The notes under the pieces are model-generated. The model searched no databases, was not told where the DNA came from, and was given only the letters and a program-made list of their open reading frames with translations. A DNA stretch of 64,000 nucleotides, taken from assembly GCF_003697815.1 (NCBI RefSeq), contig NZ_RDQG01000085.1, forward strand, positions 1 to 64,000, given 5' to 3'. Both the position numbers and the translations under genes were made by a program. Shown one piece after another: positions 7,714 through 37,293 of this stretch. Source of the stretch: Halalkalicoccus subterraneus. GTDB taxonomy: Archaea > Halobacteriota > Halobacteria > Halobacteriales > Halalkalicoccaceae. Numbering within the stretch: the first letter of the stretch is position 1; each line of letters opens with the position of its first letter.

Positions 7714-8682
7714 CTAAACACGGTCATGAAAGACATTGTAGAAACGCTCGCCATAGGTCAGGAACCAACCGATGTGATCTTCCCACATATCCCGATCGGC
7801 CAGCGTCCCGTTAGTTCGCAGCTGGAGCTGGCTACGCATGTTTCCACCGCGGGTCTTTTCAGGTTCGATCCAGACGAGTGACTCGCCGATCTCGTCTTCG
7901 ATCTGCTCACGCTCGGCTTCTAGTTGCCAATAGGTCTCCTCGTCGTCCTCAATAATCAGACTGATGTACCGCTCGTCTTCTGTCGTATTGAACACGAAGG
8001 AGAGATGGAATCCGGACTTTCCGATCGGGTTCGAATAGTACAACCGGGGACTGGGTTTTCGTGGCTGGAGCGGTGTTTCATCTTCCTCAATCCTGTCCCG
8101 AAACGCAATCCAGAATTCCTCGCGTCGTTCCTCTTGCTCAGATAGTTCGTTCTTCGCGCGTCGAGCCCGTTCTTTCCACTCGCTGGGCTGTTCAGCAGGA
8201 TTAAATCGCACTGCCGGATCAGAGTCGCCGATCTTCCATACCTCCAATCGGATCGCGAATAGATCGATCCTTTCGCGGCTATTGTCGTTGAGCCATTGAA
8301 TCGCATCACTGTGTTCGTCATTGAACTGGGGTGCGATCCAGACGATGATGTCCGCATCAACACCAGCTGCGTACGCGATTGCTTTCCCGAGGTGATCATG
8401 ATCGGAGGTAGTGAGCTGATTTTCAATGACGACGTTTCGTCCATCTCCTTCAACGCGGGCCAAAATATCGACACTGTACTTGCCGACGCGTTTCTCGACT
8501 TCAATTACCTCGAGATCTAACTCAAGAACATCCTCTAGATAGGATGTGTCCTCTGATTGGATTTCAGTAGCCAACCACGGCGTGAACTGACGTGCTTCAT
8601 CCGCCCAGTATTCCCGAACGTCCTGAGGTTCGAGTTCTTGAAAATACAGTCCCTCAAACGCTGGCATAGGTATACCACTCAT
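7714..8682 (-). CDS. DUF4268-type protein with N-terminal PD-(D/E)XK-like domain
   Basis: A 322-residue protein. The N-terminal half holds a restriction-endonuclease-like core: a VGKYSVDILAR strand with Asp, then VVIENQL in place of ExK, and the helix DHDHLGKAIAYAAG typical of DUF91/NucS-like folds. The C-terminal half (LYYSNPIGKSGFHLSFV...WIEPEKTRGG) resembles the DUF4268 domain. Proteins of this kind occur in defence and restriction islands; their exact role is unknown. It lies convergent with the FokI-like gene and is followed upstream by an insertion sequence. Start at 8682 or the internal ATG at 8667. Confidence 0.7.
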   Translation of the reverse strand: MSGIPMPAFEGLYFQELEPQDVREYWADEARQFTPWLATEIQSEDTSYLEDVLELDLEVIEVEKRVGKYSVDILARVEGDGRNVVIENQLTTSDHDHLGKAIAYAAGVDADIIVWIAPQFNDEHSDAIQWLNDNSRERIDLFAIRLEVWKIGDSDPAVRFNPAEQPSEWKERARRAKNELSEQEERREEFWIAFRDRIEEDETPLQPRKPSPRLYYSNPIGKSGFHLSFVFNTTEDERYISLIIEDDEETYWQLEAEREQIEDEIGESLVWIEPEKTRGGNMRSQLQLRTNGTLADRDMWEDHIGWFLTYGERFYNVFHDRV

Positions 8683-8711: not shown

Positions 8712-9950
8712 TACTTGACTTCGCACGTTATGCTGACTGAGCGCGTAATGAGTGTAGAAACTGCTGATGCTGCCGATCACGTCGTTCTTGTCATGTACGG
8801 AGCCGATTGACCAGTTAGAGTGTTTCTCGACGAGGCAGAAACACCATGCCAAGACCTACGTCACAGGTCTTGTTGCGGCCAGCAACAAGACCGTTCAAGG
8901 GATTTCGACGCTTGTCCTCCCGGCCAAAAGCGAACGGGTGTTGAACAAGTTCCTCACCGAGTACGACTGGGACGAAGTCCAACTCAACAAAGAACGCTTG
9001 GAGCTTCTTCAACAAGCCGACGACACGAGGTGGAGCAGTGAAGGTGTCGTCGATGATGACGACACCTTCACGCACAAGACCGGCGAGCAGATTCTCAATG
9101 CCGGGAAATTCTACGACCACACCGGTCCTGGGTACATCTGGGGACAGAATCTCATCTACGCACTCTACGCCGACGAAAAAACCCCCGCTCGGATTTCGTC
9201 TCTATGAAAAAGACGCCAAGCGACGCGTCGAACTTGCCATCGAGCTCATTGACGAACTCATCGAGATAGGTGTCCCGGCGGACACCTATCTCTTCGACAT
9301 GACCTATTGTTCTGAGGAGTTTGTCACCCACCTCGAAACCAACGGGAAGGAGTGGGTTTCAGCGGTCAAAAGCGACGCACGCGTCACCTATGGAGGTGAG
9401 CGCATCCGTGTCGATGCGCTGGCCGAGCGCATCGACACAGTCCCACGCACGATCAACGGTGAAACCTATCACATCTGGACGCAGAAACGTGACGTAAGCC
9501 GTCTCGGGAAGGTGAAGTTGCTCATTACGAAGAAGGAATCGAGTGAGGAAGACGAGGAACCAAGCGTGAAGTACATCGTCTCGAACAAGACCGACGCGCC
9601 AGCGAGCCATCTCATCGAGTTGTACGCGATGAGATGGCGGGTGGAGACGTTCTTCAGAGACACTAAGCAGGATCTTGGTTTTGGAGATTGCGAGCTCCGG
9701 CATGGCGCAAGTGCCAGTCGGCACTGGCACCTGCTGATGCTGGCCTACAGTCTCCTCAAGCTCGGTGCTGCATCCAGCACTCTTGGAACGATTCTCGCAC
9801 GTGCGACTTCGCTTCGCAACGACCTCAAACGATCCTTCCGGGAAAGCGTCGAGAACCTTCTCTCTTGGGCACTCACCAGCCCCAACCGCAGCATCGACGA
9901 GCTAATGCACCAGATCGAAGGCATGTTCCTCTAACGTGCGAAGTCAAGTA
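8712..9950 (+). mobile_element. IS4/IS701-like insertion sequence, 1239 bp, decayed
   Basis: Bounded by perfect 19-bp inverted repeats, TACTTGACTTCGCACGTTA at 8712-8730 and its complement at 9932-9950, the latter overlapping the end of the transposase gene. It holds one transposase gene with a frameshift. I could not find a clear target-site duplication in the flanks. It sits between the DUF4268 gene and the 3' end of the DUF1998 helicase, so it did not break either gene. Confidence 0.8.
8767..9934 (+). pseudogene. DDE transposase, frameshifted
   Basis: Frame 1 from ATG 8767 gives the N-terminal half with the first catalytic Asp cluster (VVDDDDTFTHKTG, near residue 95) and GQNLIYALYADEK. The match then jumps to another frame (LGFRLYEKD onward) that runs to 9934 with RWRVETFFRDTKQDLGF carrying the catalytic Glu. 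The break is at a run of A6C5 near 9175-9186 and needs one extra base to be skipped, so transposase from this copy is probably inactive unless ribosomes shift there. The coding sequence contains several long perfect inverted repeats (9040-9069, 9263-9292, 9408-9438). Confidence 0.8.
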
Positions 9951-9976: not shown

Positions 9977-12900
9977 TCACAAATTGTCAAGATGATTCCC
10001 GATCTGCGCTCGATAAACGTCCATCATTGGATCATTTTCAAAGTCTTCGATATGAATCTCAATCACAGTCCACCCTTCTGCCTTCAACGCATTTCGGAGA
10101 TACTTGTCTTTCTGTTTCTGTTCTTGTTCACTGTGTATTGGACCATCCAAATAAATAGCAATCTCGGCTTCTTCATGGAATAAATCAGGGAGAGTGTATG
10201 CATTGATATGCGGAAGATCGATCTTTCCCTGTGGCTCGAATCTATTATAGCCCCATTCATTACAGACAATATCCTCGAGTCGTTTCTCCCATATGTTCGT
10301 GTCCTGGTTACTCTCCTCTTCGACCTCGTTAATAGGTTCGATTGGGTTCGATGCTATTGATTCCTGACCCATTCCTTGAATGAGCTCAAGTGCACGGTGA
10401 CGGTCGAGTTGGTCGTGGTAGAATTGATTAAAGTACGTCCGAAGACAGTCATAACAACTCGTCGAACAGGCACTCGGACAGCTCCCAAGAAGCTCTATAG
10501 CGGCGTCGTAGACTGCATCCCATTCATTGATGAATTGCTCAAGCAGTCCGCTCCCGCCAGGCATTGGATCGTAGAGAAACAGTTGCCACATTTCGTCGTC
10601 CACGGGAATTGGAAGCCATTGCAGATCGTCGCGCTCCATATCGAAGAGGTGGCTGCCGATAAGCGTCATCGCTTCACCCAGGCTCACAGCGTCCCCCTGT
10701 GAGGCTAGTTCCGTGAACAGGAGGCCATCAACGTCGCTGTGAACATGGAGTGCGAAGTACCCTGGTTCTTCGCCACAATGCTCCTCGTGATACTCGACGA
10801 AATCTTCGATCCGATCGTCGCTATCGTAGGGGCTCCGAACGCCGCCACAAACGGTACAGATCGGATAGCCGAGCGGTCGATCTTGATCAGGCTGCTCGGG
10901 ACCAAAGTTCAGAATTGTCACGAACTGGCTTTCACGGTGGTCAACGGTCTGGTCAGTAAACTCGTAGCGACGCCCCCCGTCATGTCGTTTTCGAAGCACC
11001 CCAGCAGTGACACTCGGCATTCGAAACCGCGTATTCTCGAGTTCCTCGACGTGACTGATGAATCGGAGCTGTGAGTCAACGAGCGGAAGCGATGAGACCT
11101 CTGTAGCTTGTGGGTTATTGTAGCCTGCCTCCACTTCCATTTTGTTCGTGACTGCGTAGCGGGCGGGATCAACGTCCCACTCTCGTGGGTTCTTGATCTC
11201 GTCGCTCGCCGGGAATTTGTAGTAACTCACCTGGTACTTGCCCCCATTCGCGTAGATTCGATTCCCAGGGACGTGTTCGTGAATCGCGATCGTGTTTGGC
11301 CGATTGATATCGAACTCAAATTTGTCCCAGCCACGTGAGTACGCGCGTTCTGCCGACGCGACCACGCCTTCGCGAGACGTCGCGTAGCCCGGTAGGAATC
11401 CTTCTTGGGAGAGAACCGAGAGTGTGTACGTACGATAGCCCTGATCGGCGTCATTCGAATCACTAGTCGAGTAGGGTCGAAGTATGTCAATGGTGCTCTC
11501 ACACCGAGATTTGAACCGGCGTTCTTCGTCTGTCAGCGTTTCCCCATCGACCTCCTTCTGAGCGAGGCGGCGTCGCTGCTCCCACGCCCATGTGAGACGA
11601 TCAAGAACGCGCTGGTACGTTCCTTCAAGCTCGTCTGCCATCTCGCCGACGTACGTCTCAAGTTGATCACGAGAGACGTAATCTGGATCATCTGGCCACT
11701 CTTGGGTGAACGAGTTTTCGAGTCGATTGAGAATGCGCTCTTTACGGCTCTCATCAGCAAGTGCTTCGCGGAGTGGCTTGACGACTGGTTCCAAATTTTC
11801 TCGTGGTTGTCGGTCGTCGAAGACGACATCACCGATTCGACCGGGGATGACAGCGTCAATCCACTTCTCATCCTCGTCGAGGAGCTCCGCATGTATTTCG
11901 GTGAGAACCGCCGCATGAACGTGCTTACGGATCATCACCGGATTTTGTAAGTTGAAATTCGGTGGTCGGACGTCCCCGTCAAGAAGCGCCTCTGGCTGTT
12001 TGAAGAAGTGGAGATCGTGGGGATTCGAGCGAGCGTAGGTATAGATAATCGCCATCCGGTTACGCCGTCCTGCTCGGCCTGCACGCTGCCAGTAGTTGGC
12101 GGCTTGCGGTGGGACGTTCCGAAGGAGAACCATATCAAGAGCCCCGATGTCGACGCCAAGCTCGAGTGTCGGCGTCGCGACGAGGGCGTTAACGTCACGG
12201 CCTTCTTTGAACTCGCGCTCGATACGTTCCCGCTGTTTGTTCGGGACCTGTGCCGTGTGCTCTTCAGCCATCACGAAGGTATCTGCATCTTCGAGTTCGA
12301 CGAGGTCGTAATCCCTCGGTTCGGTATCCTCCATAAATTCCACTTCACCCTCCGAGCACCGCCAGCGAGTGCAAGCGTGATTTGGTGTGGGTCGTGGATG
12401 GATGCGACCGCAGAACGAGCAGCGATATCGCTCGTCCTGCTTTGAGATACCGATTCGGTGAGCGTCGACCTGATAGACGTTCTGCGTCCCTTTAATGGGG
12501 TCGCCTGACGCCCATTTGAGCGAATCAAGCCTGGTCAACAGGCCAAGTTCTTCAGTAAGCAAGTTCCAGACATCTCCGAGGAACGATTCACGTTCGGTAT
12601 TCTCTAAGTCGAGACGCTGAGCCCAGTCTTCGATTCCAGTTGTGCTTTTCCCCACCCATTTCTTGATATATTGAGATCCAGCGTCATTGGAGGACCCTTC
12701 AAGTCGCATCCCGGAGGGATAGAAATCAATGGGTGGCAGGTACTGGTTTCTCACCAAGTCGAGCCGGTTGTCCCACGTTTGCGAGAAAATCGGTTCACGC
12801 TGATGGTGAAGCATCTGCCGCTTCCGTGCGCCATCGAGTAAGCTCTGAAGCCATGCCACCAGTGTTTCGGGGGCTTGGTGGTACTCGGCCGCGAGATCAC

Positions 12901-15349
12901 GGATGGCCTCATTCGAGGTGTCGACACCGGCGTAGTGGACGCGAAGCTTACCCCAGGTCTCGAGGCTGGCCCGGGTGCTGTATGATGTTGAAACCTCACG
13001 AAGCACCTGAACAGTCAGATAACGTTCGAGTGACCGTCGAAGCTTCGAGTCGTATGCGTTCTCGAGATTTTCCTCGAAGACTTCTGGCGCGATGAGTTTC
13101 GCTCGCCCCTTGTCTTCCATCAGCGTATCAGCGAGTCGCTCGACAACCGTCGTGATGCTAATCTCGGGAGGTTCCTCGTCCGGATCATCCGGCAGTTCGG
13201 GGAGATAGTTATAGAGCAGGCGCCGGAAGCGATACCGGCGTGCACGGTCCTGCATCCAACCAGCCTGAAACGCCGCCTCTTGGCGGTTATCAGTGAAGAC
13301 AATCAGGCGTTCGCCTTCGTCATCTGCTTGATTGAGCATGTCCTGAGCGAGGACATAGACGTTCGCGACGGTGACCTCGCGAAGGGCTCGGAACGGGTCG
13401 TCGTAGTAGTTGTTCCCGTAACCCTGGTTGTAGCGACAGACAGGACAGCTGGAGACCTCGTCGACGCTCTCGAGAATCAGTACTTGGAGGAGCGTTCCCT
13501 TTCGCTCACAGCACCCACAGGAGTCCTGTTCGCCCTTGTGGAGTGCACCGCACGCATAGCAGACGTAGCCCTCTGAGTGTTTGTTCGAGTCACCGGGACC
13601 CCACTCGTCGTCGTTATGGACGATAGTATCTGTGAAGAGAACGCGTGACTCGGTGTCGGTTTCATCGGGGAAAAATACAGTTCCACTCTTCGTCTGGTGA
13701 CCACCTTTCAGTTCGTCACCAGGCGAACTCGTGGCGTCCTGTACGTACTGCTCGTAGTGGTGCTGACCACACTGAGGACAGACGAGAACCGGGAAAAATG
13801 CGGTATCATCACGCCGTCCGTCGTAGCGTTTCTTCGCGTCATCGGCGTTAAGGAAGAGATCCGGGCGGGCTGGGCGTGCATCGTCGCCCTTCTCGAGGAC
13901 TGCGACCGCCCCTTCTAGCCCTTTCACGAAGTAGTGCAGTTTCGGTCTGAACAGCGGCGTTTCCTCTTTTTCCGCCGCAGCACCAAGCACGAGGTACGTT
14001 AGAATCTCCTCGCGATCACCATCGCGTGTGGCCGTCACACCTCGGTCGGATCCCTCCCAGACGCTATCGACGAGGTCTTCCAACGACCGAACGGTGTTTC
14101 CGTAGTAGTGAATCAGGTGAGCGAATTCGTTCTGCAGCAACCCATCAAAAAGTCGCTCCTGGATATCGTCGCCTGCTGGTAACGCACGGCCCGTGAGTTC
14201 CTCGTAGATGATCTCGATTTCGGCGTTCTTCGCTGGGCCATCGTCCATCGAGATGGCCTGGAGCGTTCGCTGAAAGAGGTCTGTTGGCTTCGGCGGAAGC
14301 GTCGTGTCGTATCGGTCGTCGGGCCAGTCGATGCCCTGGTACGACTCACGGACGATGGAGACGTTGCCTTTGTCGACGCCGAACAGACGAGCCATGAATC
14401 GCTGCCCCTCATCCTCGTGTTTCTCGTCGACGATGGTCGCACTCGTCGCGATGTTCGAGGTATAACCCTTTGGCGGTTTCGCGAGCGATTTCAGCCGGCG
14501 GAGCAGCAGTGAAATCTCAGCACCCTGCGCACCGGTATTGGTGTGAGCCTCGTCCATCACGACGTACTCCAGCGGAGCGTCAAGGAACAGATCGAGGTCT
14601 TTTCCACGGGTGAGTTGGAACTCGAGGATGGCCTTGTTCACCAGAAGGATTTGCGGAGGGTCTGCTCGAATCTGCTCACGGGTGTAGCGCTCTTCAGGTG
14701 GCAGGTGGACGACGTTCTCGTCCTCGTCGACCTCCTCACGGAGTTCCTGGTACTCTTCGCGAGACGTTCCTTCGGGGACTTTTCGACCCTCGAACGAGAG
14801 CCCAGTTTCGTCTTCAGGGGTTGGGCCGACGTATCGACCGAACGTGACGCCGGTACCCACGAGGAGTTCTCGAAGGCGATCGAGCTGGTCGGCTGCTAGG
14901 GCGTTCATCGGATAGACGATGACGGCCGTCACGCCATCAGGAGCGTCAGGATCCTCGTTGAGCCTAAGGCAGCGGTCGACGATCGGATAAAGGAATGCCT
15001 CAGTCTTGCCGGATCCCGTTCCGGTCGTCACAAGCGTGTCATTGCCGTCTTTGATCGAATGAAGCGCTTGCTCTTGGTGTTCGTAGAGGTGTTCATACGG
15101 CACGATTCCTCGCATGCGATTGTGGAGCGTCCCGTCGTCAACGAGGTCGCTGACTCGAGAACCTTCCTTGTAGGCACGGCTCAGTGAGACGAACGGGCCT
15201 TTGAATAGCGGGGAGTCGTTTCGCCAGAGCTTCTCTTCGAATTGGTTGCTAAGAATCTCGTCGGTAAGGCGGGCAGAGGTTAGTTGATAGCGAAGGTATT
15301 GCTTGTTAACCTCTTCAGAAAATTGGAGTGGGTTAAGAGTCATTCTCAC
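9977..15349 (-). CDS. DrmA-like helicase with DUF1998 region and C-terminal nuclease-like domain
   Basis: A 1790-residue helicase. Walker A TGTGSGKT lies near residue 107, the DEAH box (VMDEAH) near 265, and the second RecA domain with LELGVDIG and QRAGRAGRR near 1055-1095. Between and after are zinc-binding clusters (CPQCGQHH, CYACGAL, CPVCRYN, CSFCGR). The C-terminal third carries the DUF1998 signature, a PMPGGSGLLEQ strand followed by a Cys cluster (CPSACSTSCYDC, about 1625-1636). The last 90 residues (PDLFHEEAEIAIYLDG...EGWTVIEI) look like a DUF559/Vsr-type nuclease fold. In DISARM the helicase DrmA and the DUF1998 protein DrmB are separate; here they appear joined. It is the last gene of the operon, 49 bases after the TBP-like gene. 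An intact alternative would be an MrfA/Lhr-like repair helicase. Confidence 0.8.
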   Translation of the reverse strand: MRMTLNPLQFSEEVNKQYLRYQLTSARLTDEILSNQFEEKLWRNDSPLFKGPFVSLSRAYKEGSRVSDLVDDGTLHNRMRGIVPYEHLYEHQEQALHSIKDGNDTLVTTGTGSGKTEAFLYPIVDRCLRLNEDPDAPDGVTAVIVYPMNALAADQLDRLRELLVGTGVTFGRYVGPTPEDETGLSFEGRKVPEGTSREEYQELREEVDEDENVVHLPPEERYTREQIRADPPQILLVNKAILEFQLTRGKDLDLFLDAPLEYVVMDEAHTNTGAQGAEISLLLRRLKSLAKPPKGYTSNIATSATIVDEKHEDEGQRFMARLFGVDKGNVSIVRESYQGIDWPDDRYDTTLPPKPTDLFQRTLQAISMDDGPAKNAEIEIIYEELTGRALPAGDDIQERLFDGLLQNEFAHLIHYYGNTVRSLEDLVDSVWEGSDRGVTATRDGDREEILTYLVLGAAAEKEETPLFRPKLHYFVKGLEGAVAVLEKGDDARPARPDLFLNADDAKKRYDGRRDDTAFFPVLVCPQCGQHHYEQYVQDATSSPGDELKGGHQTKSGTVFFPDETDTESRVLFTDTIVHNDDEWGPGDSNKHSEGYVCYACGALHKGEQDSCGCCERKGTLLQVLILESVDEVSSCPVCRYNQGYGNNYYDDPFRALREVTVANVYVLAQDMLNQADDEGERLIVFTDNRQEAAFQAGWMQDRARRYRFRRLLYNYLPELPDDPDEEPPEISITTVVERLADTLMEDKGRAKLIAPEVFEENLENAYDSKLRRSLERYLTVQVLREVSTSYSTRASLETWGKLRVHYAGVDTSNEAIRDLAAEYHQAPETLVAWLQSLLDGARKRQMLHHQREPIFSQTWDNRLDLVRNQYLPPIDFYPSGMRLEGSSNDAGSQYIKKWVGKSTTGIEDWAQRLDLENTERESFLGDVWNLLTEELGLLTRLDSLKWASGDPIKGTQNVYQVDAHRIGISKQDERYRCSFCGRIHPRPTPNHACTRWRCSEGEVEFMEDTEPRDYDLVELEDADTFVMAEEHTAQVPNKQRERIEREFKEGRDVNALVATPTLELGVDIGALDMVLLRNVPPQAANYWQRAGRAGRRNRMAIIYTYARSNPHDLHFFKQPEALLDGDVRPPNFNLQNPVMIRKHVHAAVLTEIHAELLDEDEKWIDAVIPGRIGDVVFDDRQPRENLEPVVKPLREALADESRKERILNRLENSFTQEWPDDPDYVSRDQLETYVGEMADELEGTYQRVLDRLTWAWEQRRRLAQKEVDGETLTDEERRFKSRCESTIDILRPYSTSDSNDADQGYRTYTLSVLSQEGFLPGYATSREGVVASAERAYSRGWDKFEFDINRPNTIAIHEHVPGNRIYANGGKYQVSYYKFPASDEIKNPREWDVDPARYAVTNKMEVEAGYNNPQATEVSSLPLVDSQLRFISHVEELENTRFRMPSVTAGVLRKRHDGGRRYEFTDQTVDHRESQFVTILNFGPEQPDQDRPLGYPICTVCGGVRSPYDSDDRIEDFVEYHEEHCGEEPGYFALHVHSDVDGLLFTELASQGDAVSLGEAMTLIGSHLFDMERDDLQWLPIPVDDEMWQLFLYDPMPGGSGLLEQFINEWDAVYDAAIELLGSCPSACSTSCYDCLRTYFNQFYHDQLDRHRALELIQGMGQESIASNPIEPINEVEEESNQDTNIWEKRLEDIVCNEWGYNRFEPQGKIDLPHINAYTLPDLFHEEAEIAIYLDGPIHSEQEQKQKDKYLRNALKAEGWTVIEIHIEDFENDPMMDVYRAQIGNHLDNL

Positions 15350-15398: not shown

Positions 15399-15938
15399 TC
15401 ATGGTAACAGTGTTGTGAGGTCTTCAAATAACTCATCAAATGCTTTTTCCGCCTCTGAACGGGTGGCGAGCCCAGTTAGTAAAATATTTCCAGTACGGAA
15501 TATTAGAAACGTTCCTTCAAGCTCATTAGGACGATATAACAATCCAGGGAATTGTTCTGGTTCATACTCTGTCGATTCTAGTCCTAATGCGATCGCGATT
15601 TGTCCAAGATCGAGCTCTTTTCCAAGATCGTCTAATAGTACCAGATTGCGTACTTCAAAATAAGGATCGGCAACGACTATCTCGATTTCCTCTAATCTTG
15701 AAAGAAATTCGCCATTAGATCCCAATAGATGTTCAATAGATGTTGCACCTGCAATATTGTATTTTCCACTTGAGAATACGAGAACCGCAGGAGAGTTTGG
15801 GGTCAATCTTAAATATAATCCAGGCCAATGTTCAGGATCATATCTAGCGATCTCCCCATCAATCACGCTATGCAAAATATTAAGATCCAGTTCTTGATGC
15901 AAATCCCCTCCGCCGACCGCGTTTACGATTTTTGCCAT
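15399..15938 (-). CDS. Divergent TATA-binding-protein-like protein inside the defence operon
   Basis: A 179-residue protein, the usual size of archaeal TBP, with the two-fold repeat: first half IVNAVGGGDLHQELDL, WPGLYLRL, VLVFSSGKYNIAGA; second half VRNLVLLDDLGKELDLGQIAIALGLES, FPGLLYR, FLIFRTGNILLTG. These are the saddle strands that bind and kink TATA DNA. One intercalating Phe position is Trp in repeat one, and other key positions differ, so DNA preference may have changed. Haloarchaea carry several TBP paralogues, but this one lies between the methylase and the DUF1998 helicase with gaps of only about 50 bases on both sides, so it is part of the operon. It could drive transcription of the system or act as a DNA-bending subunit. 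Confidence 0.85.
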   Translation of the reverse strand: MAKIVNAVGGGDLHQELDLNILHSVIDGEIARYDPEHWPGLYLRLTPNSPAVLVFSSGKYNIAGATSIEHLLGSNGEFLSRLEEIEIVVADPYFEVRNLVLLDDLGKELDLGQIAIALGLESTEYEPEQFPGLLYRPNELEGTFLIFRTGNILLTGLATRSEAEKAFDELFEDLTTLLP

Positions 15939-15990
15939 ATTATATTTAGTGTCTCAATTGGCGGATCGATATAGAAAACCATCTGGACGT

Positions 15991-18900
15991 TCATTTTTTT
16001 AATAGTGAATCCCAAATCACTGAAAAAGAACCAGAACTCGACCGTAATTCATTCTCAAGGGCTTTCATTTGGTCAGATGTCAGGACCTGTTTCGTGGTTT
16101 CTTTAAGGGTAGAAATATCAGGCGAAGGGTTCCAACCTTCATGAGTTGTGGATGACGTGGGTATATTCCAGGGGTTTTGACAAAATGAATCGATATCATT
16201 CTCATCCAAGTAATTGTATGCAGATAAGCAATTCTGTTTTATTTCTGAGTCTACTAAACGGAAAGACCGGGGATCCTCAGTCTCAGCCAAGACATGTTTA
16301 AGATCCTCACTAGATAACCCATAACCTTTCGCTACAAGAGCTTCACAGTTTGCTCGGATCACCTTTTCCGAGACATCAGAGATCGCTAACGGAAGTTGAA
16401 CTACTTCAGGGTTGATATGGCATAAGTAGTATCGATAAGGAGCGTACATTTCCGCGTCGAAGACAATACTAGCTATAAGTGAAGCAAGCAAGCTCGATTC
16501 TTTCGAGCTGAACTGGGGTAGGGGTTGTTCCCTTACGAAGCAGTTGTTATGATTAGCATCGATTCGGCGTCTGAAGACATAATCAAAAGTGTGAGATTGC
16601 ATAACACCGGCGAGTTCGAGCTTTGTCTCAATACTTTCATCTGGCATCATGGCACGAGTAGCGCTATTGACCATTGGCCAGTTCGGTAAAACCCCTGGAC
16701 AGAACGATCGCTCCATCTGACAATTTCCGGTGTTTCGGAAAACTAGCCGTATATTCTCGACTTTTCCGTGGCTATTTTTATATTCTTCAATTGGAACCCA
16801 GTCATTAGAGGCAGGGAATGACGTTGGCCATCGGTTATCGGATACCGTTGCTTGTGTGACTCCTAGCCAGTAGTCCTTTCCTTCAATTACTGGCAAATAT
16901 CCATCATTCACCACACCGTATGTGAAGTCTTCGTTAGAAGCATCAATTGATGTGAATTTGTTAGCATCGTCTGTTGAATGATATTCCCGGCCAAATTCCA
17001 AAGTCCCTTCTGCCACTAAGTCGTATACCCTAGGAGCATTCTTGCAAATTTTCAAGATGGTTTTCGCTGTATCTTTATCAAATAGAGGTGGGAAGCTATT
17101 TAGTTCTGGTGAAAATTCGGAAATAAAATCGGAACCCACCATGATAGTTCGTATATCTTGCTCCGCCCACTCACGGAAGTCAAGGATAGGACGAGTTATT
17201 CGTACTTCTTCAGAGTTTTGATGGCATATTAGAATAGAAAACCTGTCGAAATTTGCTCCAAAAGCCTTTCTTCCGTCTGGGGCACGATTTTCGATGGTGG
17301 CAACCCAAGAAAGCCCTCTGTTTGAACAAGCCTCTCGCAATTTGGATGCTCGTTGTGCAAATCGAACGCTTGAAGGCAACAACATCCCTATATTTTTACC
17401 AATATTTAGAGAATGGCTCATGAACGCCTTTGAAGTCTGAATATTTCCTTTCCCATGTGAGGCAAAATCCCGGACTTGACCAATATTTGACTTTTTTCCG
17501 AATACACTATCTGGTCTTCCCACAGATTTTATCCAATGTTTTCGAGCTTTGATTTTTGCTCTATACTCGGACCATTCGGTCCTTATATCACCATAGTTCT
17601 CTAATAGAGAGTTCCGTCTCTGATTGAATTCCCGGCGCTTTAAAGCGCGAGCATGTGGAATATAGCGCTGGAACCACTCTCGACTCTGTGGCTTCACAAT
17701 ATCCCATGGTGGATTCCCCAAGACTGCATCAAAACCGATTTGTTGCCCAGAGAAGACATCCGGGAATTCGAATTCCCAATGGAAGAACTGTAAATCTGAA
17801 TCTGATTTAATCTCTTCAATAATCTTACGCTCCTCATCTGACGGCGGATCCTCCCAATCTTGCGGTAACGGCGCGGAATCAAGTTTCTCAATTGGCCAAA
17901 ACCAAAGAGCGCACCACCGATCCATGCGGGTTTTTAATCGGTTAGAGCCAGCATTTTCCAGAACTTCTTTTTGATATTTTTGATCTCGTTCGTTTTCATC
18001 AATCAAGTCGTGCATTTCGCTATATGTGTCAGCAAGACTCGATTTAATATCAGTTGTTTTAGTTTTCTTGAACCAGTGTGTTTGATATTGTCGTTGTTTT
18101 TCTATTATTTCGATACCGGGCTCAATTTTTTCCTTACGTATCTGTTTAATTTTCTTTGTATTATCTCCAGATCTTCCGTCACCTCCACCTCTATTCCATG
18201 CTCCAATTGGATATGATTCAAATTCTTGAGTCCAAGCACCAATAAGACTATTTCCGGTCTTCAATTTATGATCTAAGAAAGTAAATGGAAGATCCGAATC
18301 AAGTGTCTCAATCCAAAGACTGAGCTTGGAAAGCTCCACTGCTAGTGGGTTAATATCAACACCATAGATGCATCTCTCAACAACCGAACGTTTGAGTTGA
18401 ATTTCAAGTCGGCCCTGCCAGTTTTCGTCCTCCTCCATATGGATATTGAGCAACCGTTCATTCAGATATCCCTTTGCAGTCTCACCAAGTGGAGCAGAAA
18501 CTGGCTCGCCTTCACGAAGTTCTGGGAAGACGTATTCTTCAAAGGACTCTTTGAGGGCTTCTGTGAGATAATTTAATGCTGCTACGGGGAATGTTCCAGA
18601 TCCCATAGCAGGATCACAAATTTCCAACTCGAGTATCTCTTCGGGGGTCTTGGGAACCTTTGAGTTATCGCTCTGTTTGTATGCAAGCGGCTCAAGTGTC
18701 CGTTTGACAGTCGGAATTGCTAGTTCAGGAGGAGTATAGAAGGTTCCCGTTGATTTTCGAGTGCCTCCGTAACTCACAAGATATGTACCACCCTGGCGAA
18801 CAATCTTATCAACTACGCGCTTCGCAGCTTTGTTTTCATATTTCTCCTTGGTCGTAGGATCCATCGCACGGACGGTATTATGATGAGGCATGAACACTTG

Positions 18901-20538
18901 CGTTTCTTCCACAACTCGTTTCGCCCACCGATGGACTCTTTCTTCTAACTCATCCCCGAACTTTATCTCATTAGCTATACCCTCCGAAACATCATCAGGC
19001 TCATTTTCATCGAAGTCACTTTCTGACACCTCTTCGTCGCCGAGGAAAGACCCCGAGGCATCGCCTTTTAGGTTATCAACTAAAGTATTTATCTGGTCCT
19101 CATCTAGATCTTCGAGAACACTAAACGGAAGTGCTGGTTGGTCCCCAATGTTCAGAAATACGATAGCTCCATCTTCCTCACTCGCCTCTCGAAGTTCGTA
19201 GTCCAGCAGCCCCTCGTACATCATGCCAATGTACTCGGTTCGCAAATCGCTGAAATCGACAGGGCCGGTGCGGCGCTGTCCGCCACTCTTGAACTCGGCG
19301 ATCTTCAGCTTCTCCAGAACTTCGAGGATGGTCGCATCGCTCAGTCGGATATCGTCATCCTCGAATACAGCGAGTCCTGCGAGCACGTCATCATCCCCGT
19401 CTTCACCGGGCGGTCGGAATAGACGACCACCGTACGCGCGGAGGGGGACATCGCTGTGCGGACTCCCGTAGTAGACGAGACGGGACAGGGCCTGCAGACG
19501 CGGCCACGCACTGTACTGCTTTTCGAGCGTGTCCTCGCCTTCCTCGATGCGGGCCTCCCGAAGATCTTGGAACAACCCTTCGACACTGTACGAGTTGTAG
19601 TAGACTGGGTTGCCCTTCGGGAATAGCTCGCGACTCTCGGCGTACAGCGCAACGACGAGTCGCATTACGATTCGAATCGCAGCCTGGTAGCGAGCGCGAA
19701 GTTCGTCACGCTGACTGAGATCCTGCTCTGTCAACGGTGCGAGTATCTCCTCGCGTTCCTCCTCACTCATCTCCATCAGGATCGCGTCGAGGTCTTTCAG
19801 GAGGAGTTCGACCGCCTCGCGAACCTGCGTACCCATCACGTCCGAAAGGTCTGCCTGCCGGTCTCGGCTGGCCTTGATCCGACCAATAAGTGATTCCTCT
19901 TCGTCCTCGGACGGCGTCGGGAGGACGTCGTCCCTTAGCAAACCGTAGAACCCACGGAGTGCTCGTCGACCCTCGCCGCCCTGGAACCACGCCTGTGCAT
20001 CCCATTCAGTCCAGCTCTCGTGGTCGAGCGTTGCGTGGATGACGCGGAACTGATGGCCATTTGTGAGAATGCCGATATCAGTTCCAGTCTCCCGGAGTAA
20101 TCGAACGAACTTTGCGTAGGTTCGCTTCCCGCTGTAGATCCCGATCTGATCCGGGTCACCGTTATCATCCGTGACGCGATCGGTGTCGATCCACACCATC
20201 GCCCGAGCCTCGTCGTCCTGATTGAGAAGGACGCGATTCGGTCGGAGGTCCCCTCTTCGGAACTCTGCGGGAACATTTGTCTCCTTCATCCACCACGACT
20301 TCGAATGGCCAAGGAGGTCTTCGAGAACGACGTCGAGCCAGTCGTAGAGTTCGTCAGAGTCGTTCCGGAAACTCTTGTACGACCGCCTGAGCGTCTCGTA
20401 CTCACGCTCGCCGAGACTTGGCGGTCCATCCGGGAAGATCTCCTCGAGGACGATTGGACTCAGGAGGACACCCTGATGTTTGAGTGTCGTCCACCAGGCG
20501 TTGGGTTCGTCCTCTTGGACAACTTCGACAGCGCTCAT
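15991..20538 (-). CDS. Large N6-adenine methylase (DrmMI/PglX-like)
   Basis: A 1515-residue protein. Motif I DPAMGSGTF (SAM binding) lies near residue 641 and the catalytic motif IV NPPW near 941, in the order of gamma-class adenine methylases such as PglX, Eco57I and DrmMI. The first 600 residues are a helical N-terminal region with an ENxxRVLLNQ-type segment and no clear nuclease triad; the last 500 would hold target recognition. ATG overlaps the stop of the upstream helicase by four bases (ATGA), showing translational coupling. By eye the 5' third is GC-rich while the rest is clearly AT-richer, which suggests a mosaic gene with an exchanged recognition part. Role: mark host DNA so that the system spares it. 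Confidence 0.85.
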   Translation of the reverse strand: MSAVEVVQEDEPNAWWTTLKHQGVLLSPIVLEEIFPDGPPSLGEREYETLRRSYKSFRNDSDELYDWLDVVLEDLLGHSKSWWMKETNVPAEFRRGDLRPNRVLLNQDDEARAMVWIDTDRVTDDNGDPDQIGIYSGKRTYAKFVRLLRETGTDIGILTNGHQFRVIHATLDHESWTEWDAQAWFQGGEGRRALRGFYGLLRDDVLPTPSEDEEESLIGRIKASRDRQADLSDVMGTQVREAVELLLKDLDAILMEMSEEEREEILAPLTEQDLSQRDELRARYQAAIRIVMRLVVALYAESRELFPKGNPVYYNSYSVEGLFQDLREARIEEGEDTLEKQYSAWPRLQALSRLVYYGSPHSDVPLRAYGGRLFRPPGEDGDDDVLAGLAVFEDDDIRLSDATILEVLEKLKIAEFKSGGQRRTGPVDFSDLRTEYIGMMYEGLLDYELREASEEDGAIVFLNIGDQPALPFSVLEDLDEDQINTLVDNLKGDASGSFLGDEEVSESDFDENEPDDVSEGIANEIKFGDELEERVHRWAKRVVEETQVFMPHHNTVRAMDPTTKEKYENKAAKRVVDKIVRQGGTYLVSYGGTRKSTGTFYTPPELAIPTVKRTLEPLAYKQSDNSKVPKTPEEILELEICDPAMGSGTFPVAALNYLTEALKESFEEYVFPELREGEPVSAPLGETAKGYLNERLLNIHMEEDENWQGRLEIQLKRSVVERCIYGVDINPLAVELSKLSLWIETLDSDLPFTFLDHKLKTGNSLIGAWTQEFESYPIGAWNRGGGDGRSGDNTKKIKQIRKEKIEPGIEIIEKQRQYQTHWFKKTKTTDIKSSLADTYSEMHDLIDENERDQKYQKEVLENAGSNRLKTRMDRWCALWFWPIEKLDSAPLPQDWEDPPSDEERKIIEEIKSDSDLQFFHWEFEFPDVFSGQQIGFDAVLGNPPWDIVKPQSREWFQRYIPHARALKRREFNQRRNSLLENYGDIRTEWSEYRAKIKARKHWIKSVGRPDSVFGKKSNIGQVRDFASHGKGNIQTSKAFMSHSLNIGKNIGMLLPSSVRFAQRASKLREACSNRGLSWVATIENRAPDGRKAFGANFDRFSILICHQNSEEVRITRPILDFREWAEQDIRTIMVGSDFISEFSPELNSFPPLFDKDTAKTILKICKNAPRVYDLVAEGTLEFGREYHSTDDANKFTSIDASNEDFTYGVVNDGYLPVIEGKDYWLGVTQATVSDNRWPTSFPASNDWVPIEEYKNSHGKVENIRLVFRNTGNCQMERSFCPGVLPNWPMVNSATRAMMPDESIETKLELAGVMQSHTFDYVFRRRIDANHNNCFVREQPLPQFSSKESSLLASLIASIVFDAEMYAPYRYYLCHINPEVVQLPLAISDVSEKVIRANCEALVAKGYGLSSEDLKHVLAETEDPRSFRLVDSEIKQNCLSAYNYLDENDIDSFCQNPWNIPTSSTTHEGWNPSPDISTLKETTKQVLTSDQMKALENELRSSSGSFSVIWDSLLKK

Positions 20539-23500
20539 TGTGCGTCACCCCCTCGAACAGGGACGTACAGTTTTGCGCCTAGTTCGGTGACGTCGATTTC
20601 ATCAGCCAGCGTGTAGCGTTTCGGGAGCACTTCTTCTAAGAATCGTTCGTTCTCACGCTCGAGTCGTTCTCTCATGAGCCGCTGGTTTTCTTCCCACACT
20701 TGCAGGTCCTCTTCGGACAGCTGGCGACGTAATTCTTCAACGCGCCGCTGACGGTCGACGTTCTCTTCGGGGTCAAAGGTGAGTTGCTGTGCTTTCTCCT
20801 CGGCTTGCGCAAGCTCCTCGCGCAGTCGTTCCTTCCGCTGATCGGTGAGGTCTTGTTCGAGTTCCTTCATCCGTTGATCGAATTCTTCTTCGAGCTGTTC
20901 GCGAGCATCCTCGCCTGCGGCGTCGAGTTCTGACTCGAGTTCTTCTCGCGTCTCTTGTCGGAGGTTCTCTTCGAGGGGTTCGACGTGTAGGTCAACGTTA
21001 ACGAAAGCAGGGCGGAGATCGTTCCACCACTCGACCATCGTCGACTCATCCAGTGTTCGCTCATTGTCTACCGTCGGCGGGTTCTCCGCTCTTGAGAGGC
21101 CATCAGGTGTGACGTGGAACCACCACGACCCGACATCGGCGTGTACGACTTCTTGGAGCTGGTTACGTGCAGTCAGTAAGTAGTGGAACTCGACGTATGC
21201 CTCCCGTCCCATATCTGGGTTGTAGCCGACGAGTGTCCAGCGGTTGATATCGTCTTCCTGGCCCCAGATTGCCCGGCGGAAATACGACATACTCGTCTCG
21301 ACGAGCGGATGACCGATACGGATCAAACGGGAGCCTTTCTGCGGCCGATAGATCTCCCGGCCGTTTACCTCGTTGATGAAGGTTTGCGGATCGAAGACGA
21401 GCTCGGGCATCGACTCCTGGGCATCAGCGAGATTTCGAGTTAGGAACTCTTTGAGTCGTCCGCGGGCACCAGTGATGCGGTATCCGTTCCGATTCTGCTG
21501 GAGATCTGCATTATGCAGTTCGAGATACGAGTTGACGACATTCCGTATCGAGCTAGGGGTCAGGTCGTACTCGCGACTTGCCTGTTGGAACTGCTGCTTG
21601 GCTTCGAAGAACTCCTCCTGCGTGGGTGCATCAAGTTCCTCAAGGTCCTCTTTAGCGGGATCGTCACTACGGACTCGTTCAACGCGGTCATCTAGCGTAC
21701 TTTGTTCGATGCTACCGCCCCAGAACCGACGCTGGACACCGCTATCGATGACTGTGCTAACGCTACCGAGATCGTCGCGTGCTTCATTAACCTTATTCAG
21801 CACATACGCGAGGAAGCGCTGATCGGCCTGCTCATCGCTCGTGTAATGGAAGATACCGACGTCACGTTCCTGTCCGTGGCGATCCACGCGACCATTGCGT
21901 TGTTCAAGTTTCATCGGATTCCACGGTATCTCGTAGTGACTAACGTAACGACACATTCGCTGGAGATTCAACCCCTCACTCGCGCTGTCCGTCCCCACGA
22001 GAATTCGGAGAGGTGAATCAGGATCGTTGAATGCTTCCTTGATATCATCTCGCTCCGTCCGCGACATCCCGCCATAGACGGCTTGCACAGTGTGACCGCT
22101 GTAGCCAGCATCTTCGAGTCGAGCTAAGACGTGATCTTGCGTGTCCTTGTATTCAGTAAAGAGAATAAGGCGCTCATCGTCTTTCGGATCGGAAGGGGCA
22201 CCGAGAAGCGGCTGAAGGTTTTCTGTTGGGAATCCGTGTTTGAGATGTTGAACGAGTGCGTCAGCCTTCGAATCTGGAATGTCGAGTCCCGTCTCAGGAC
22301 CCTTCGCTGTGACTTCTGCCGTCCACCCAAGGTTGCGTAGAGCTTCGCTTACCACCTCAGCAGGGTCCTCCAAGCTGGGTGCTTCCTCGAAAAGCCACGA
22401 GCCACCTTCGGCTGCTGCAAGCCGTTCACGATCCTCTCGCTCGATATCGTCTTCGATATCCTCTTCCACCTCGTCGAAGGTCTGTTGCAGCTCTTGTTCA
22501 GTGGTGTAGAACTCTCGCGATCCAACGTGACGCCACCACGTTCTAGCGAATGCGTACGGCGAACTGAGGAGTCGCTTATTGAGAATTGTGAATATGAACT
22601 GTCCCCAGTTCTCTTTTTGCTTTCCTCGCTCGGAGAGTTCTGATTTCGCCCGATCACGGTACTCACGCAGGGCTTCGAACAATTGCTTTTCCTCTGGCGT
22701 CAGATCGACAGGAACGCCATTCACGTGCCGGTCGGGGAATCTGTCGATAGTCGATGCCTGATTGATTTCCCTCTTTAGCCGCCTCGACATGATGGTATCG
22801 AGATGTCGGCGGTCCGTTTCGGAGAGGCTCGGTTTTTGGATGAAACGAATGGGATCCAGCAGTTCGAGTAACCCAAGGAAGTGCGAGGTATAGCCGTCGT
22901 GTGGCGTGGCAGTGAGGAAGAGGCGATGCTCAAACCACTTTGTGAGACGCCGCATCATCTGTGTACGGACCTTCTCGTCACGCGTGGATTTCGGCGCGAA
23001 GTGATGAGCCTCATCGACGATGAGAAGATCCCACGGTGCGAAGGTGCCGCCCATCTCCTCTTGACGTTTTTTCGCACTCGCTTCGAAGTCCTGGTAGATG
23101 ACCTCCTGTCGGAGGTAGTCCATGCTCGTAATGATGTGGTTGTGGACTGCCCACGGATTCACGTCACTCCCGAGTTCACGCTGCGTACGACGTGCCTCGT
23201 CAGCATCGAGAATGGTAAAGTTGAGGTGGAATTTCTCCTCCATCTCCTCCTGCCACTGGACCTGAAGACTGGCTGGACAAACGATAAGGATCCGTTTGAT
23301 CCGCCGACGAAGAATGAGTTCCGTTGCGATCAAACCGGCCTGAATCGTCTTGCCGAGCCCCACGTCGTCTGCGAGAAGAAGCGAAACCTGGGGCATGCTC
23401 ATCGCCTTCAATAGTGGCGTCAGTTGATAATCTTCGATTTGAATTGCTGATGCCCATGGTGAGACTAATGGTAAATCTTCATTCGAATCGATAAGAGATT

Positions 23501-23813
23501 GAATGGACTGGAGACTAGTCCATTGGACAGAATCTAGATAGGCATCATAATATTGTGGTTGATCGGGCTGTTGTTGTGGAATATTCGGCCAGCCAGCATT
23601 CTCTAAAAATCCAGAGGTGGGTTCAAGTTCCCACAGAATTTGATCAGTTTGGGGATGCTCATGACCATCGAGATAATCGACAGTGACTAAGTTCAAGGGC
23701 TGTTCCTGACTATTCGAGTTCGTCACTCCTGTTACGAGTGCTGGCCGATTCCGAACCTGTATGAGTTGCCCACGTTCAGGGGGCTGCGAGGCGATTTGAC
23801 GAGAACTATTCAT
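20535..23813 (-). CDS. SNF2-type helicase (DrmD-like)
   Basis: A 1092-residue SNF2-family ATPase. Walker A DDVGLGKT lies near residue 148, DEAH (IVDEAHHFAP) near 265, and the C-terminal RecA motifs (SEGLNLQ, QRNGRVDRHGQ) near 608-640. A long charged coiled coil (QRMKELEQDLTDQRKERL onward) occupies about residues 930-1050. Class 1 DISARM begins with such a protein (DrmD), followed by the adenine methylase, exactly as here. It would translocate on DNA; in DISARM the helicases help detect or process unmodified invading DNA. First gene of the operon, divergent from the unknown operon at 24122. Confidence 0.85.
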   Translation of the reverse strand: MNSSRQIASQPPERGQLIQVRNRPALVTGVTNSNSQEQPLNLVTVDYLDGHEHPQTDQILWELEPTSGFLENAGWPNIPQQQPDQPQYYDAYLDSVQWTSLQSIQSLIDSNEDLPLVSPWASAIQIEDYQLTPLLKAMSMPQVSLLLADDVGLGKTIQAGLIATELILRRRIKRILIVCPASLQVQWQEEMEEKFHLNFTILDADEARRTQRELGSDVNPWAVHNHIITSMDYLRQEVIYQDFEASAKKRQEEMGGTFAPWDLLIVDEAHHFAPKSTRDEKVRTQMMRRLTKWFEHRLFLTATPHDGYTSHFLGLLELLDPIRFIQKPSLSETDRRHLDTIMSRRLKREINQASTIDRFPDRHVNGVPVDLTPEEKQLFEALREYRDRAKSELSERGKQKENWGQFIFTILNKRLLSSPYAFARTWWRHVGSREFYTTEQELQQTFDEVEEDIEDDIEREDRERLAAAEGGSWLFEEAPSLEDPAEVVSEALRNLGWTAEVTAKGPETGLDIPDSKADALVQHLKHGFPTENLQPLLGAPSDPKDDERLILFTEYKDTQDHVLARLEDAGYSGHTVQAVYGGMSRTERDDIKEAFNDPDSPLRILVGTDSASEGLNLQRMCRYVSHYEIPWNPMKLEQRNGRVDRHGQERDVGIFHYTSDEQADQRFLAYVLNKVNEARDDLGSVSTVIDSGVQRRFWGGSIEQSTLDDRVERVRSDDPAKEDLEELDAPTQEEFFEAKQQFQQASREYDLTPSSIRNVVNSYLELHNADLQQNRNGYRITGARGRLKEFLTRNLADAQESMPELVFDPQTFINEVNGREIYRPQKGSRLIRIGHPLVETSMSYFRRAIWGQEDDINRWTLVGYNPDMGREAYVEFHYLLTARNQLQEVVHADVGSWWFHVTPDGLSRAENPPTVDNERTLDESTMVEWWNDLRPAFVNVDLHVEPLEENLRQETREELESELDAAGEDAREQLEEEFDQRMKELEQDLTDQRKERLREELAQAEEKAQQLTFDPEENVDRQRRVEELRRQLSEEDLQVWEENQRLMRERLERENERFLEEVLPKRYTLADEIDVTELGAKLYVPVRGGDAQ

Positions 23814-24121: not shown

Positions 24122-25213
24122 ATGCAGTCGGCAGCTGAAGATGAAAAACCAGATTTTAGCTACAGTGGTCAGCTACTCTTCAACGGCATTTACACATCAA
24201 CACTTAAAGAGAGTCCGTCTAATGATCTCAATCAACAGGATGCCAAAGAGCGCATTCGTGCTCAAATTCCAGAATTAGCGGCGTCAACAAGCGGCGGCCC
24301 TCAATCTGGCTTTCGGCACATCGGATTCTCGGAGGCCCTTGAACGGTACGACTTCAATGCAGAGAACGCGAAGCTCTCCGAACCGATCCATTCTAAGATT
24401 GTCTCGGATATGCTTGACTTAGAGTACGTTAAGGAGGAATTCACTGGGAAGACACTTGTTCTGACTGAGGATAACCAGCGAATCAGCGGTGAGGAGATTG
24501 AAGAACACTCAGCATATCTCTACTGGAATCTTACATCACTGCTCTTGGTTCATGGTGCAAAGCCGGATCGGGAGCGAGCGATGAAAGCGATTTATCATGC
24601 GCTAGGCATTACTAATGACAAGATTGAAAGCCTTCTTAGCATCAAGCCTGTCGACTTCGACCCGTGGTTTCTGTTCTGGCTTATATATCAAAACAACAAC
24701 TCGAACCCAATAAGTAAAGATATTGGTATTTTTCGAATTCAGAATATTCAACTGAAGCAGCAGGCCGACATCAGAGACACGTTTGGAGATAAAACGCGGG
24801 TGACCGGCTCTACTGACGCCGTTGAGTCTGTGCAAGTGATTGCAGGTCTCCTCCACGGAATGCTACCCATCGGGCTTGAAGCGAAGTTCGATATTGGTGG
24901 CGAGTATCTAATTGCCGACATTAGTGCTTCCGGTCGAATACATATACGCGCAGAAGAGGCCATCAGTGCCGCCTCCAAGCTTGAACGGGCACTCTTGGGA
25001 ATTCAATTTGTCCAAAACCTCGTTCAAGCACAACAGAGATGGGAGTACTTCGATCCGGACAAGAAGTTCGTCTCTCCGGAGTTCTCGAAAACGCTATATG
25101 ATAACGCGAAAGATCAAAACGTTTCAATTGACTTTGACAAGGAACTTGTCCGCAAACAGGTGGCCAAGCGCAAGGAATCGCTAGATGACTGGAAGCACCT
25201 AGACTTCTCGTAG
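24122..25213 (+). CDS. Unrecognised protein, paralogue A of a four-gene operon
   Basis: A 363-residue acidic, soluble-looking protein with no family I can name. Its start FSYSGQLLFNGIY, a middle VDFDPWFLFWLIY segment, and a C-terminal pattern (GLLHGMLPIGLEAKF, LIADISASGRIHI, ISAASKLERALLG) can be aligned with the protein of 26690-27688 (FDYTGQLRYHAY, IEFEPAFFLWIYA, ASLNVNGQVHVHV). The two appear to be distant paralogues. The order of helical N-terminus, beta-rich C-terminus and charged tail suggests a two-domain protein. It is the first gene of an operon facing away from the DISARM-like genes. Confidence 0.7.
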   Translation: MQSAAEDEKPDFSYSGQLLFNGIYTSTLKESPSNDLNQQDAKERIRAQIPELAASTSGGPQSGFRHIGFSEALERYDFNAENAKLSEPIHSKIVSDMLDLEYVKEEFTGKTLVLTEDNQRISGEEIEEHSAYLYWNLTSLLLVHGAKPDRERAMKAIYHALGITNDKIESLLSIKPVDFDPWFLFWLIYQNNNSNPISKDIGIFRIQNIQLKQQADIRDTFGDKTRVTGSTDAVESVQVIAGLLHGMLPIGLEAKFDIGGEYLIADISASGRIHIRAEEAISAASKLERALLGIQFVQNLVQAQQRWEYFDPDKKFVSPEFSKTLYDNAKDQNVSIDFDKELVRKQVAKRKESLDDWKHLDFS

Positions 25214-25283
25214 ACAACTATGACACCTACTCACCGTTTCGAAACTGCCATTATGTCGGCCATCATAGACTCAGTACCCGGAG

Positions 25284-25949
25284 ATGCCAGTGAGTAAGAG
25301 CAGCGTTCGACAGGTCGGATTTGATGGCGCTGACTCACAAGACTTCCCTGGAGAGTCTCCGATTACCGAGTATTTCGTCCATTCTCGAACGGTAGACGAA
25401 GTCTACATTCGGCCGCGTGACGAGTATCCGTACCCTGAACAGAGCATTCTTGAAGGTACGTTCAAGTATGAAGACGAGAGCTTCTTGGGGATCGCCTCTG
25501 CGTCAGTAGCGTTTCAGCTCCGTCGCGGCTCTCGTGTCCTGTTTGTCCAGAAAAAGAGCGGATCAGCGAAGCTCCGGTCTATTGTGAGCGCCTTAGACGA
25601 GCGACTGGACCACGAGTTGGGAGAAGATGTTACTGTTCACGACCAGTTTCATCCGTCCCGCGAAGGCATCTGGTCGTTTATCCATTCCGCAGAATGGGTA
25701 AGCTCGCTCACGCTACGGATTCAAAGCGAGGACGTCTCGTTTACCGAGTACGCAGAGTCCGAGAATATCTCCTTCGAGGATATCGATGGCGAGTATCCTA
25801 TTGCCTTCGCCGACCTCGTATTCGAGGCTCCTTGGGGTGATCCGGTTAGCGTCATTTACGATCACGGCCACCTAGAGGTTGCCACCAACAGCGACGAATT
25901 ATACGAGTTTATTCTCCAGCGGTTCGAGACAGACGTTCTAGCTCAGTAG
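25284..25949 (+). CDS. Unrecognised protein, second gene of the operon
   Basis: A 221-residue acidic protein rich in predicted beta strands (SFLGIASASVAFQLRRGSRVLFV, ADLVFEAPWGDPVSVIYDHGHLEVA). No catalytic motif or membrane segment is visible. It follows the first gene by 70 bases and its TAG stop is directly followed by the ATG of the third gene, so translation is probably coupled. I do not recognise the family; the composition would suit a sensor or scaffold, but that is a guess. Confidence 0.65.
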   Translation: MPVSKSSVRQVGFDGADSQDFPGESPITEYFVHSRTVDEVYIRPRDEYPYPEQSILEGTFKYEDESFLGIASASVAFQLRRGSRVLFVQKKSGSAKLRSIVSALDERLDHELGEDVTVHDQFHPSREGIWSFIHSAEWVSSLTLRIQSEDVSFTEYAESENISFEDIDGEYPIAFADLVFEAPWGDPVSVIYDHGHLEVATNSDELYEFILQRFETDVLAQ

Positions 25950-26687: not shown

Positions 26688-26689
26688 CG

Positions 26690-36105: not shown

Positions 36106-37293
<1,188 letters not shown>

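Follow-up and report, generated by a model that had tools for sequence, protein, structure and literature searches.

A divergent TATA-binding protein in a haloarchaeal ARMADA operon belongs to a clade encoded beside DNA-methylating defence systems and may be a dedicated restriction controller

A 64,000-nucleotide stretch of Halalkalicoccus subterraneus DNA (the window) encodes, within a defence operon, a TATA-binding protein (TBP) from a haloarchaeal clade that occurs essentially only beside DNA-methylating defence genes. This distribution suggests that, in archaea, a general transcription factor was recruited as a dedicated controller of restriction systems. The reading we favour, to which we assign a probability of roughly 0.6, is that a restriction–modification (R–M)-associated TBP (RM-TBP) selects promoters and controls its own methylation-based defence operon together with host TFB and RNA polymerase. 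The multiplicity of TBPs in haloarchaea is well known, unexplained and usually read as a set of stress-adaptation factors. A large part of that expansion, TbpC included, is here tied to R–M and related defence, so that the expansion gains a testable explanation. If the controller role is correct, it would (i) provide a restriction controller derived from a general transcription factor, (ii) help to explain how archaeal R–M cassettes enter naive hosts and (iii) connect immunity with the choice of promoter in a lineage whose transcription resembles that of eukaryotes.

The TBP gene occupies positions 15399–15938 of the window (minus strand, ATG start, exact ORF bounds). As the sequence-only reading of this DNA had proposed, its 179-residue product carries both TBP repeats: Pfam PF00352 matches it in two stretches (E 3e-36; score 123.6 bits, cut-off 22.9). 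By the PF00352 coordinates and residue comparison, repeat 1 (15690–15935, minus strand) has the altered DNA face of its clade and repeat 2 (15414–15659, minus strand) is canonical. An AlphaFold2 model built from the protein's own family has a pLDDT of 96.3, and its best fold matches in the PDB, at TM about 0.87–0.91, are TBPs of archaea and eukaryotes. With two repeats above the Pfam cut-off and a TBP fold, the product is a genuine but altered TBP. A whole-genome search for TBP repeats found both in the window gene and a single ordinary TBP elsewhere in the host (G000:C6); the host contig set contains at least seven TFB genes.

The surrounding operon lies entirely on the minus strand and is transcribed in the order DrmD, methylase, TBP, YprA. 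Its first gene (20535–23813) encodes a DrmD/BrxHII-type SNF2 helicase (PADLOC DrmD 2.5e-215) and shares a 4-bp overlap with the gene for a 1515-residue adenine methyltransferase of the PglX/DrmMI/IIG type (15991–20538; PADLOC REase_MTase_IIG 2.3e-175 and DrmMI 3.4e-151; Pfam Eco57I 4.8e-16). The TBP gene is separated by 52 bp from the methylase gene and by 49 bp from the helicase gene that follows (9977–15349, GTG start), in agreement with the gaps of about 50 bases noted earlier. The 1790-residue product of this last gene is a YprA/DruE-like helicase (PADLOC DruE1 1e-125; Pfam MZB 1.9e-10) with an MrfA zinc-binding (DUF1998-type) domain; its C terminus gives a weak nuclease-like match (DUF559/MTES_1575). 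Its gene content and order make this an ARMADA type I operon, with a YprA homologue, a BrxHII-like helicase and a PglX-like methylase in one operon. It shares these three proteins and the reversed archaeal gene order with the system described by Bell et al. (2025 preprint; PMC12458937); in the accessible part of that account ARMADA has no TBP, whereas the window has one between methylase and YprA. DruE1, the closest library match of the window YprA, is given there as the nearest relative (PMC12458937). Assignment to DISARM class 1 was rejected because drmA, drmB and drmC are absent as such; only DrmD and DrmMI homologues are present, and the third large gene is of the DruE/YprA type. TALON and TOTE were likewise rejected, the four operon genes and their immediate neighbours having no TPR-CSD, OB or NERD domains.

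Several other features of the window may be recorded here. A DUF4268 protein encoded near the operon but not within it (7714–8682, minus strand; PADLOC E 1.7e-102) is the candidate defence gene PDC-S11, and its homologue cluster recurs close to three more RM-TBP loci (L038, L051 and L115). Four tightly packed genes on the plus strand (24122–27688), divergent from the ARMADA operon, are matched by neither Pfam nor PADLOC. A Cas12f/TnpB-like protein (36476–37282, plus strand; PADLOC Cas12u3 8.6e-43) is probably transposon-borne and possibly truncated. DDE transposases (9038–9934 and 40721–42049) adjoin the defence region, which suggests a mobile island.

When 391 Halobacteria genomes were searched with the window protein, relatives were found in 181 (E <= 3e-22). 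Their neighbourhoods, retrieved by protein similarity alone and blind to context, contained PglX/IIG-type methylases at 46 loci, BrxHII/DrmD helicases at 31 and type I HsdM/HsdS/HsdR at about 20; PADLOC confirmed these families and added BrxC/PglZ (BREX) and Hma-type methylases. A defence-family HMM match lay within 1 kb of 83 of 117 TBP genes, compared with 4 of 142 random genes (7 of 142 within 5 kb). In the phylogeny, 96 sampled Halobacteria sequences, including the window TBP and Halobacterium NRC-1 TbpC, form a clade with SH-aLRT support of 99, and the housekeeping TBPs (TbpE lineage) fall outside it. The defence label changes 9 times on the TBP tree against a mean of 40 for shuffled labels. 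Because the tree came from a quick search and some long branches are joined in it, no weight is placed on the order of branching within the clade.

A defence-gene HMM match is present within 5 kb in 88 of the 96 clade members, and two more are viral. Five others adjoin a methylase or restriction endonuclease (REase) on inspection: an N6/N4 methylase neighbours the TBP in L124 and is adjacent to it in L153, a Hma-like methylase is adjacent in L120, an HSDR_N protein and a MmeI-like methylase flank the TBP in L033, and L131 is a type II system in which the TBP is followed by a NotI-like REase, with the methylase convergent. With L106 left out, a 3-kb contig too short to judge, all 95 assessable clade TBPs adjoin DNA-methyltransferase or restriction genes; none of 37 sampled housekeeping-lineage TBPs lies beside such genes. 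When TBPs from named GTDB genomes and viral contigs were sorted by HMM margin, the defence association held for 32 of 38 clade-type and 0 of 58 housekeeping-type TBPs, a set only partly independent because its species overlap the first. Both the clade and the conserved neighbourhood uphold the proposal that the window gene encodes a diverged paralogue of TBP and is functionally part of a defence operon.

Across the family the one constant partner is thus a DNA methyltransferase or an R–M system, and nearly every type is represented (types I and II, IIG both with and without BrxHII, BREX, Hma-like and ARMADA, with two members in viruses). TBPs are near 15 of 20 loci of one type I HsdR subfamily and 4 of 29 of a distant one; the link is therefore to particular lineages of systems, and an association with all type I R–M is ruled out. 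Four very divergent TBPs fall outside the clade, three of them at ARMADA junctions. Two isolated observations concern a TIR-domain protein immediately upstream of a TBP from outside the RM clade (L047, 10373–11218) and a TBP match that lies in an open frame of 616 codons and could be a fusion or have a misread start (L149, G246:C23, 9649–11496).

YprA of the window kind is found in 15 of the 391 Halobacteria genomes; one locus is interrupted by a contig end, and among the 14 assessable loci (the window plus 13) a recognisable TBP is present at five, window included. The other four (G025, G192, G308 and G191) have one to three recognisable TBPs at the methylase–YprA junction, placed as in the window and more divergent in G191 and G192; G060 has a broken TBP remnant there. 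Since only 4 of 13 other loci have recognisable TBPs, the TBP is a recurrent option in ARMADA rather than a fixed part. The idea that the gene might always be kept beside drmD/drmMI-like genes did not hold: most ARMADA loci have no recognisable TBP, which rules out strict dependence on DrmD/DrmMI, and the partners vary. At two junctions (L072, 6586–8553; L071, 11984–12970) two or three divergent TBP genes are piled up, some on the opposite strand.

In Halorubrum lacusprofundi ATCC 49239 (on pHLAC01) and in Halorientalis marina a methylase–helicase–TBP arrangement is present; in Halorubrum virus HRTV-9 a type IIG gene is followed 16 bp on by a TBP gene, and in Haloarcula virus HJTV-2 the TBP adjoins an N4-cytosine methylase and an Eco29kI-like REase. 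In some methylase–helicase–TBP operons (L138, upstream of 2392, and the other methylase–BrxHII loci L087, L090 and L107), the methylase gene comes after a small conserved ORF that by eye looks like an AbrB-type antitoxin. In Halobacterium NRC-1, the tbpC gene on pNRC200 overlaps the end of a helicase gene, which in turn follows a methylase gene; deletion of tbpC has no apparent phenotype (PMC2121645). The methylase of that operon is annotated as two pieces with an ISH27-family transposase between them (L146, 481–6059), and this insertion could be one reason for silence in NRC-1. Becker et al. (2014), in the portion of their article available to us, describe TbpC-like genes as specialised or as possibly non-functional because they have lost the repeat-1 Phe pair (PMC4230888). 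The window TBP resembles these proteins in belonging to the same clade, which has methylase–helicase–TBP members and has mostly lost the repeat-1 Phe pair; the same portion reports no R–M link, repeat-1 conservation or selection (PMC4230888).

Housekeeping TBPs of the TbpE lineage and RM-TBPs share the fold, repeat 2, the TFB stirrup and core Asn/Val residues, and differ in the DNA face of repeat 1, in clade and in genomic neighbourhood. The C-terminal stirrup (residues 124–136, EYEPEQFPGLLYR; 15531–15569, minus strand) contains E, Y, E, P, E, Q, F and P positions kept in 90–96 of the 96 clade members (invariant columns in A1). We take the repeat-2 stirrup to be the TFB-binding loop, as in TBP–TFIIB/TFB complexes. 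The paired Asn positions (N6 and N98 in the window protein) and Val positions, presumably minor-groove contacts as in known TBPs, are mostly kept. In contrast to housekeeping TBPs, DNA-facing positions of repeat 1 are changed consistently across the clade: L56 becomes Thr in 71 of 96 members, I63 becomes Tyr in 68, F41 becomes Tyr in 61 and F58 becomes Tyr in 82. Where most of the clade has Tyr/Tyr at the two Phe sites, the window TBP has Trp38 at the first, as the Trp-for-Phe divergence remarked on earlier implied, and keeps Phe (F55) at the second; its repeat-2 Phe pair (F130 and F147) is present. In the clade, repeat 1 has a median dN/dS of 0.17 and repeat 2 one of 0.13 (0.14 is also obtained for the TBP), and both repeats are under purifying selection. 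The repeat-1 changes amount to specialisation rather than decay, and the natural reading of the residue pattern is that RM-TBPs would still recruit TFB while preferring a different half-site.

The best explanation of these features likens the role of the RM-TBP to that of the controller (C) protein of bacterial R–M systems, with the difference that it would be built from a general transcription factor. The RM-TBP would bind a TATA-like element whose downstream half is altered, recruit TFB there and thereby set the level or timing of restriction relative to modification, for example by delaying restriction after a cassette enters an unmethylated host. We favour a controller because it explains TFB-site conservation, the altered DNA face, enzyme promiscuity, co-transcription and divergent placement, as well as the occurrence of the genes on plasmids and viruses, for which it matters to become established in unmethylated DNA. 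The sequence-only reading had offered three roles, as a dedicated initiator, a sensor of virus promoters or a DNA-bending subunit; the near-invariance of the TFB-contacting stirrup across the clade makes the first the best fit, and the other two are less favoured. Selection of promoters by TBP/TFB pairs has genetic support in Halobacterium (PMC2121645). Like the C proteins of type II R–M systems, RM-TBPs are small DNA-binding proteins within R–M loci proposed to set restriction level or timing, and the gene order of L131 (TBP, NotI-like REase, convergent methylase) resembles their C, R, convergent M arrangement (PMC3874152). The resemblance is in proposed role only: C proteins are helix–turn–helix proteins (PMC3874152), whereas RM-TBPs have the TBP fold, presumably depend on TFB and range over type I, II, IIG, BREX, Hma-like and ARMADA systems.

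Gene geometry is compatible with this role in some respects and runs counter to it in others. Among 89 clade genes with full context, 51 have a defence gene directly upstream on the same strand (44 within 60 bp and 24 overlapping) and 15 are divergent relative to the R–M genes. The TBP gene is often the last, translationally coupled gene, but C genes are usually first in their operons. Further counterpoints are that R–M systems of some types mostly have no TBP, as in the HsdR subfamily with 4 of 29, that the promoter stretch is not conserved in the cassette pair described below, and that deletion of NRC-1 tbpC is without apparent phenotype, although the methylase ORF is split by an insertion sequence there. 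A k-mer enrichment that compared 88 upstream regions with 585 controls yielded no common operator or promoter motif that survives multiple testing; TATAAGT, upstream of 5 of 31 TBP-first genes and 8 of 585 controls, is only suggestive.

Elements of this picture were known separately, namely TBPs in TOTE and TALON, C proteins and the expanded haloarchaeal TBPs. The sequence-only reading knew of no general factors in defence operons; TBPs encoded next to defence enzymes have in fact been described in TOTE and TALON, the latter also having an ARMADA-like YprA, as far as the consulted text of the preprint goes (PMC12458937). The same text presents TALON as largely from Chloroflexota and as having TPR-CSD and a NERD nuclease (PMC12458937); neither was seen in the RM-TBP loci examined, where DNA methyltransferases are central. 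We found no report linking a TBP paralogue to R–M in haloarchaea, and no mention of TBP in surveys of archaeal R–M or archaeal immunity, in the open literature searched. The family-wide link, too, was not met in that literature.

Exchange of whole cassettes bears on what the TBP is for. System type changes about 18 times on the clade tree, and one pair of loci (L040 and L138) catches such a change: their flanks and TBP gene match at about 87% DNA identity and enclose type I R–M genes in one and methylase plus BrxHII in the other, and the homology picks up again right at the start codon of the TBP. A single TBP lineage is therefore able to serve enzymes that are unrelated to one another, which argues for a general role rather than that of an enzyme-specific subunit.

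Base composition points to a second kind of mobility. A low-GC module (15399–19200, minus strand; GC 0.35–0.47 against 0.54–0.61 on both sides) comprises the TBP gene together with those two thirds of the methylase gene that encode its C-terminal part, for catalysis and target recognition. GC3 is 0.31 for the TBP and 0.61 for YprA, and steps sharply inside the methylase from 0.69 in its N-terminal part to 0.38 in its C-terminal half (0.87 to 0.38 in the nearest relative, G105). For TBPs at methylase 3' ends, GC3 tracks the C-terminal and not the N-terminal half of the methylase (rho 0.75, from few and related points, n = 17). Because of the GC3 match and the shared low-GC block, the window TBP probably arrived together with the specificity half of its methylase. 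This is not universal in the family: in methylase–TBP–helicase–TBP operons the first TBP resembles the specificity half in GC3 and the second matches the backbone, so that tracking of methylase specificity everywhere was rejected; L096 and L113 have near-identical methylases and first TBPs, and second TBPs only 71% identical. A wider proposal, which we offer tentatively and rate below even odds, is that a dedicated class of haloarchaeal TBPs controls methylation-based defence and moves both between unrelated systems and with the target-recognition half at methylase 3' ends. Promoter choice and methylation specificity would then be one heritable module, the TBP site possibly reading methylation state.

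Two other functions are each unlikely. The TBP could be a structural part of the defence enzyme complex, a subunit that bends or senses DNA and helps, for example, the methylase or YprA to engage virus promoters. The TBP domains of the TOTE and TALON conflict systems (PMC12458937) are in keeping with this, as are the frequent overlap of the TBP gene with a methylase or helicase gene and the GC3 likeness to the specificity half. The partners of RM-TBPs are, however, unrelated enzymes (type I HsdMSR, NotI-type, BREX, IIG and ARMADA); no TBP is recognisable in 9 of 14 assessable ARMADA operons, L040 and L138 keep a closely similar TBP across a change of enzyme type, and such a role would not need the conserved TFB stirrup. 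Alternatively, a spare TBP might keep defence genes transcribed when viruses shut off or titrate the host TBP, viruses carrying one for their own R–M genes. The altered DNA face with a retained TFB surface suits this idea, as does the placement of RM-TBPs beside R–M genes in HRTV-9 and HJTV-2. Against it, the TBP accompanies methylase systems only and not defence systems generally, and a halovirus anti-TBP was not found documented in the open literature searched.

We also doubt that the TBP genes are hitchhikers, serving as homology arms for the exchange of R–M cassettes with no role in the system, although the L040/L138 junction falls precisely at the TBP start codon, the shared flank of L101 and L089 stops within the TBP, and low GC3 is common to the TBP and the 3' half of the methylase. 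An anchor alone would not account for purifying selection on both repeats, for conserved substitutions specific to the clade or for stop–start overlaps with many different genes, and housekeeping TBPs, which would be equally usable anchors, are never found there. Finally, the idea of an ordinary TBP that was inserted by chance or survives as a relic, to which the suggestion that TbpC-like genes are non-functional might seem to point (PMC4230888, as quoted above), is refuted to the point of negligible probability: the window gene neither groups with ordinary TBPs nor stands outside a conserved neighbourhood, the association extends across the whole clade in the 96-member tree and in the named GTDB/viral set, the Phe positions are mostly taken by other aromatics (Tyr or Trp) and not by random residues, and dN/dS is 0.14.
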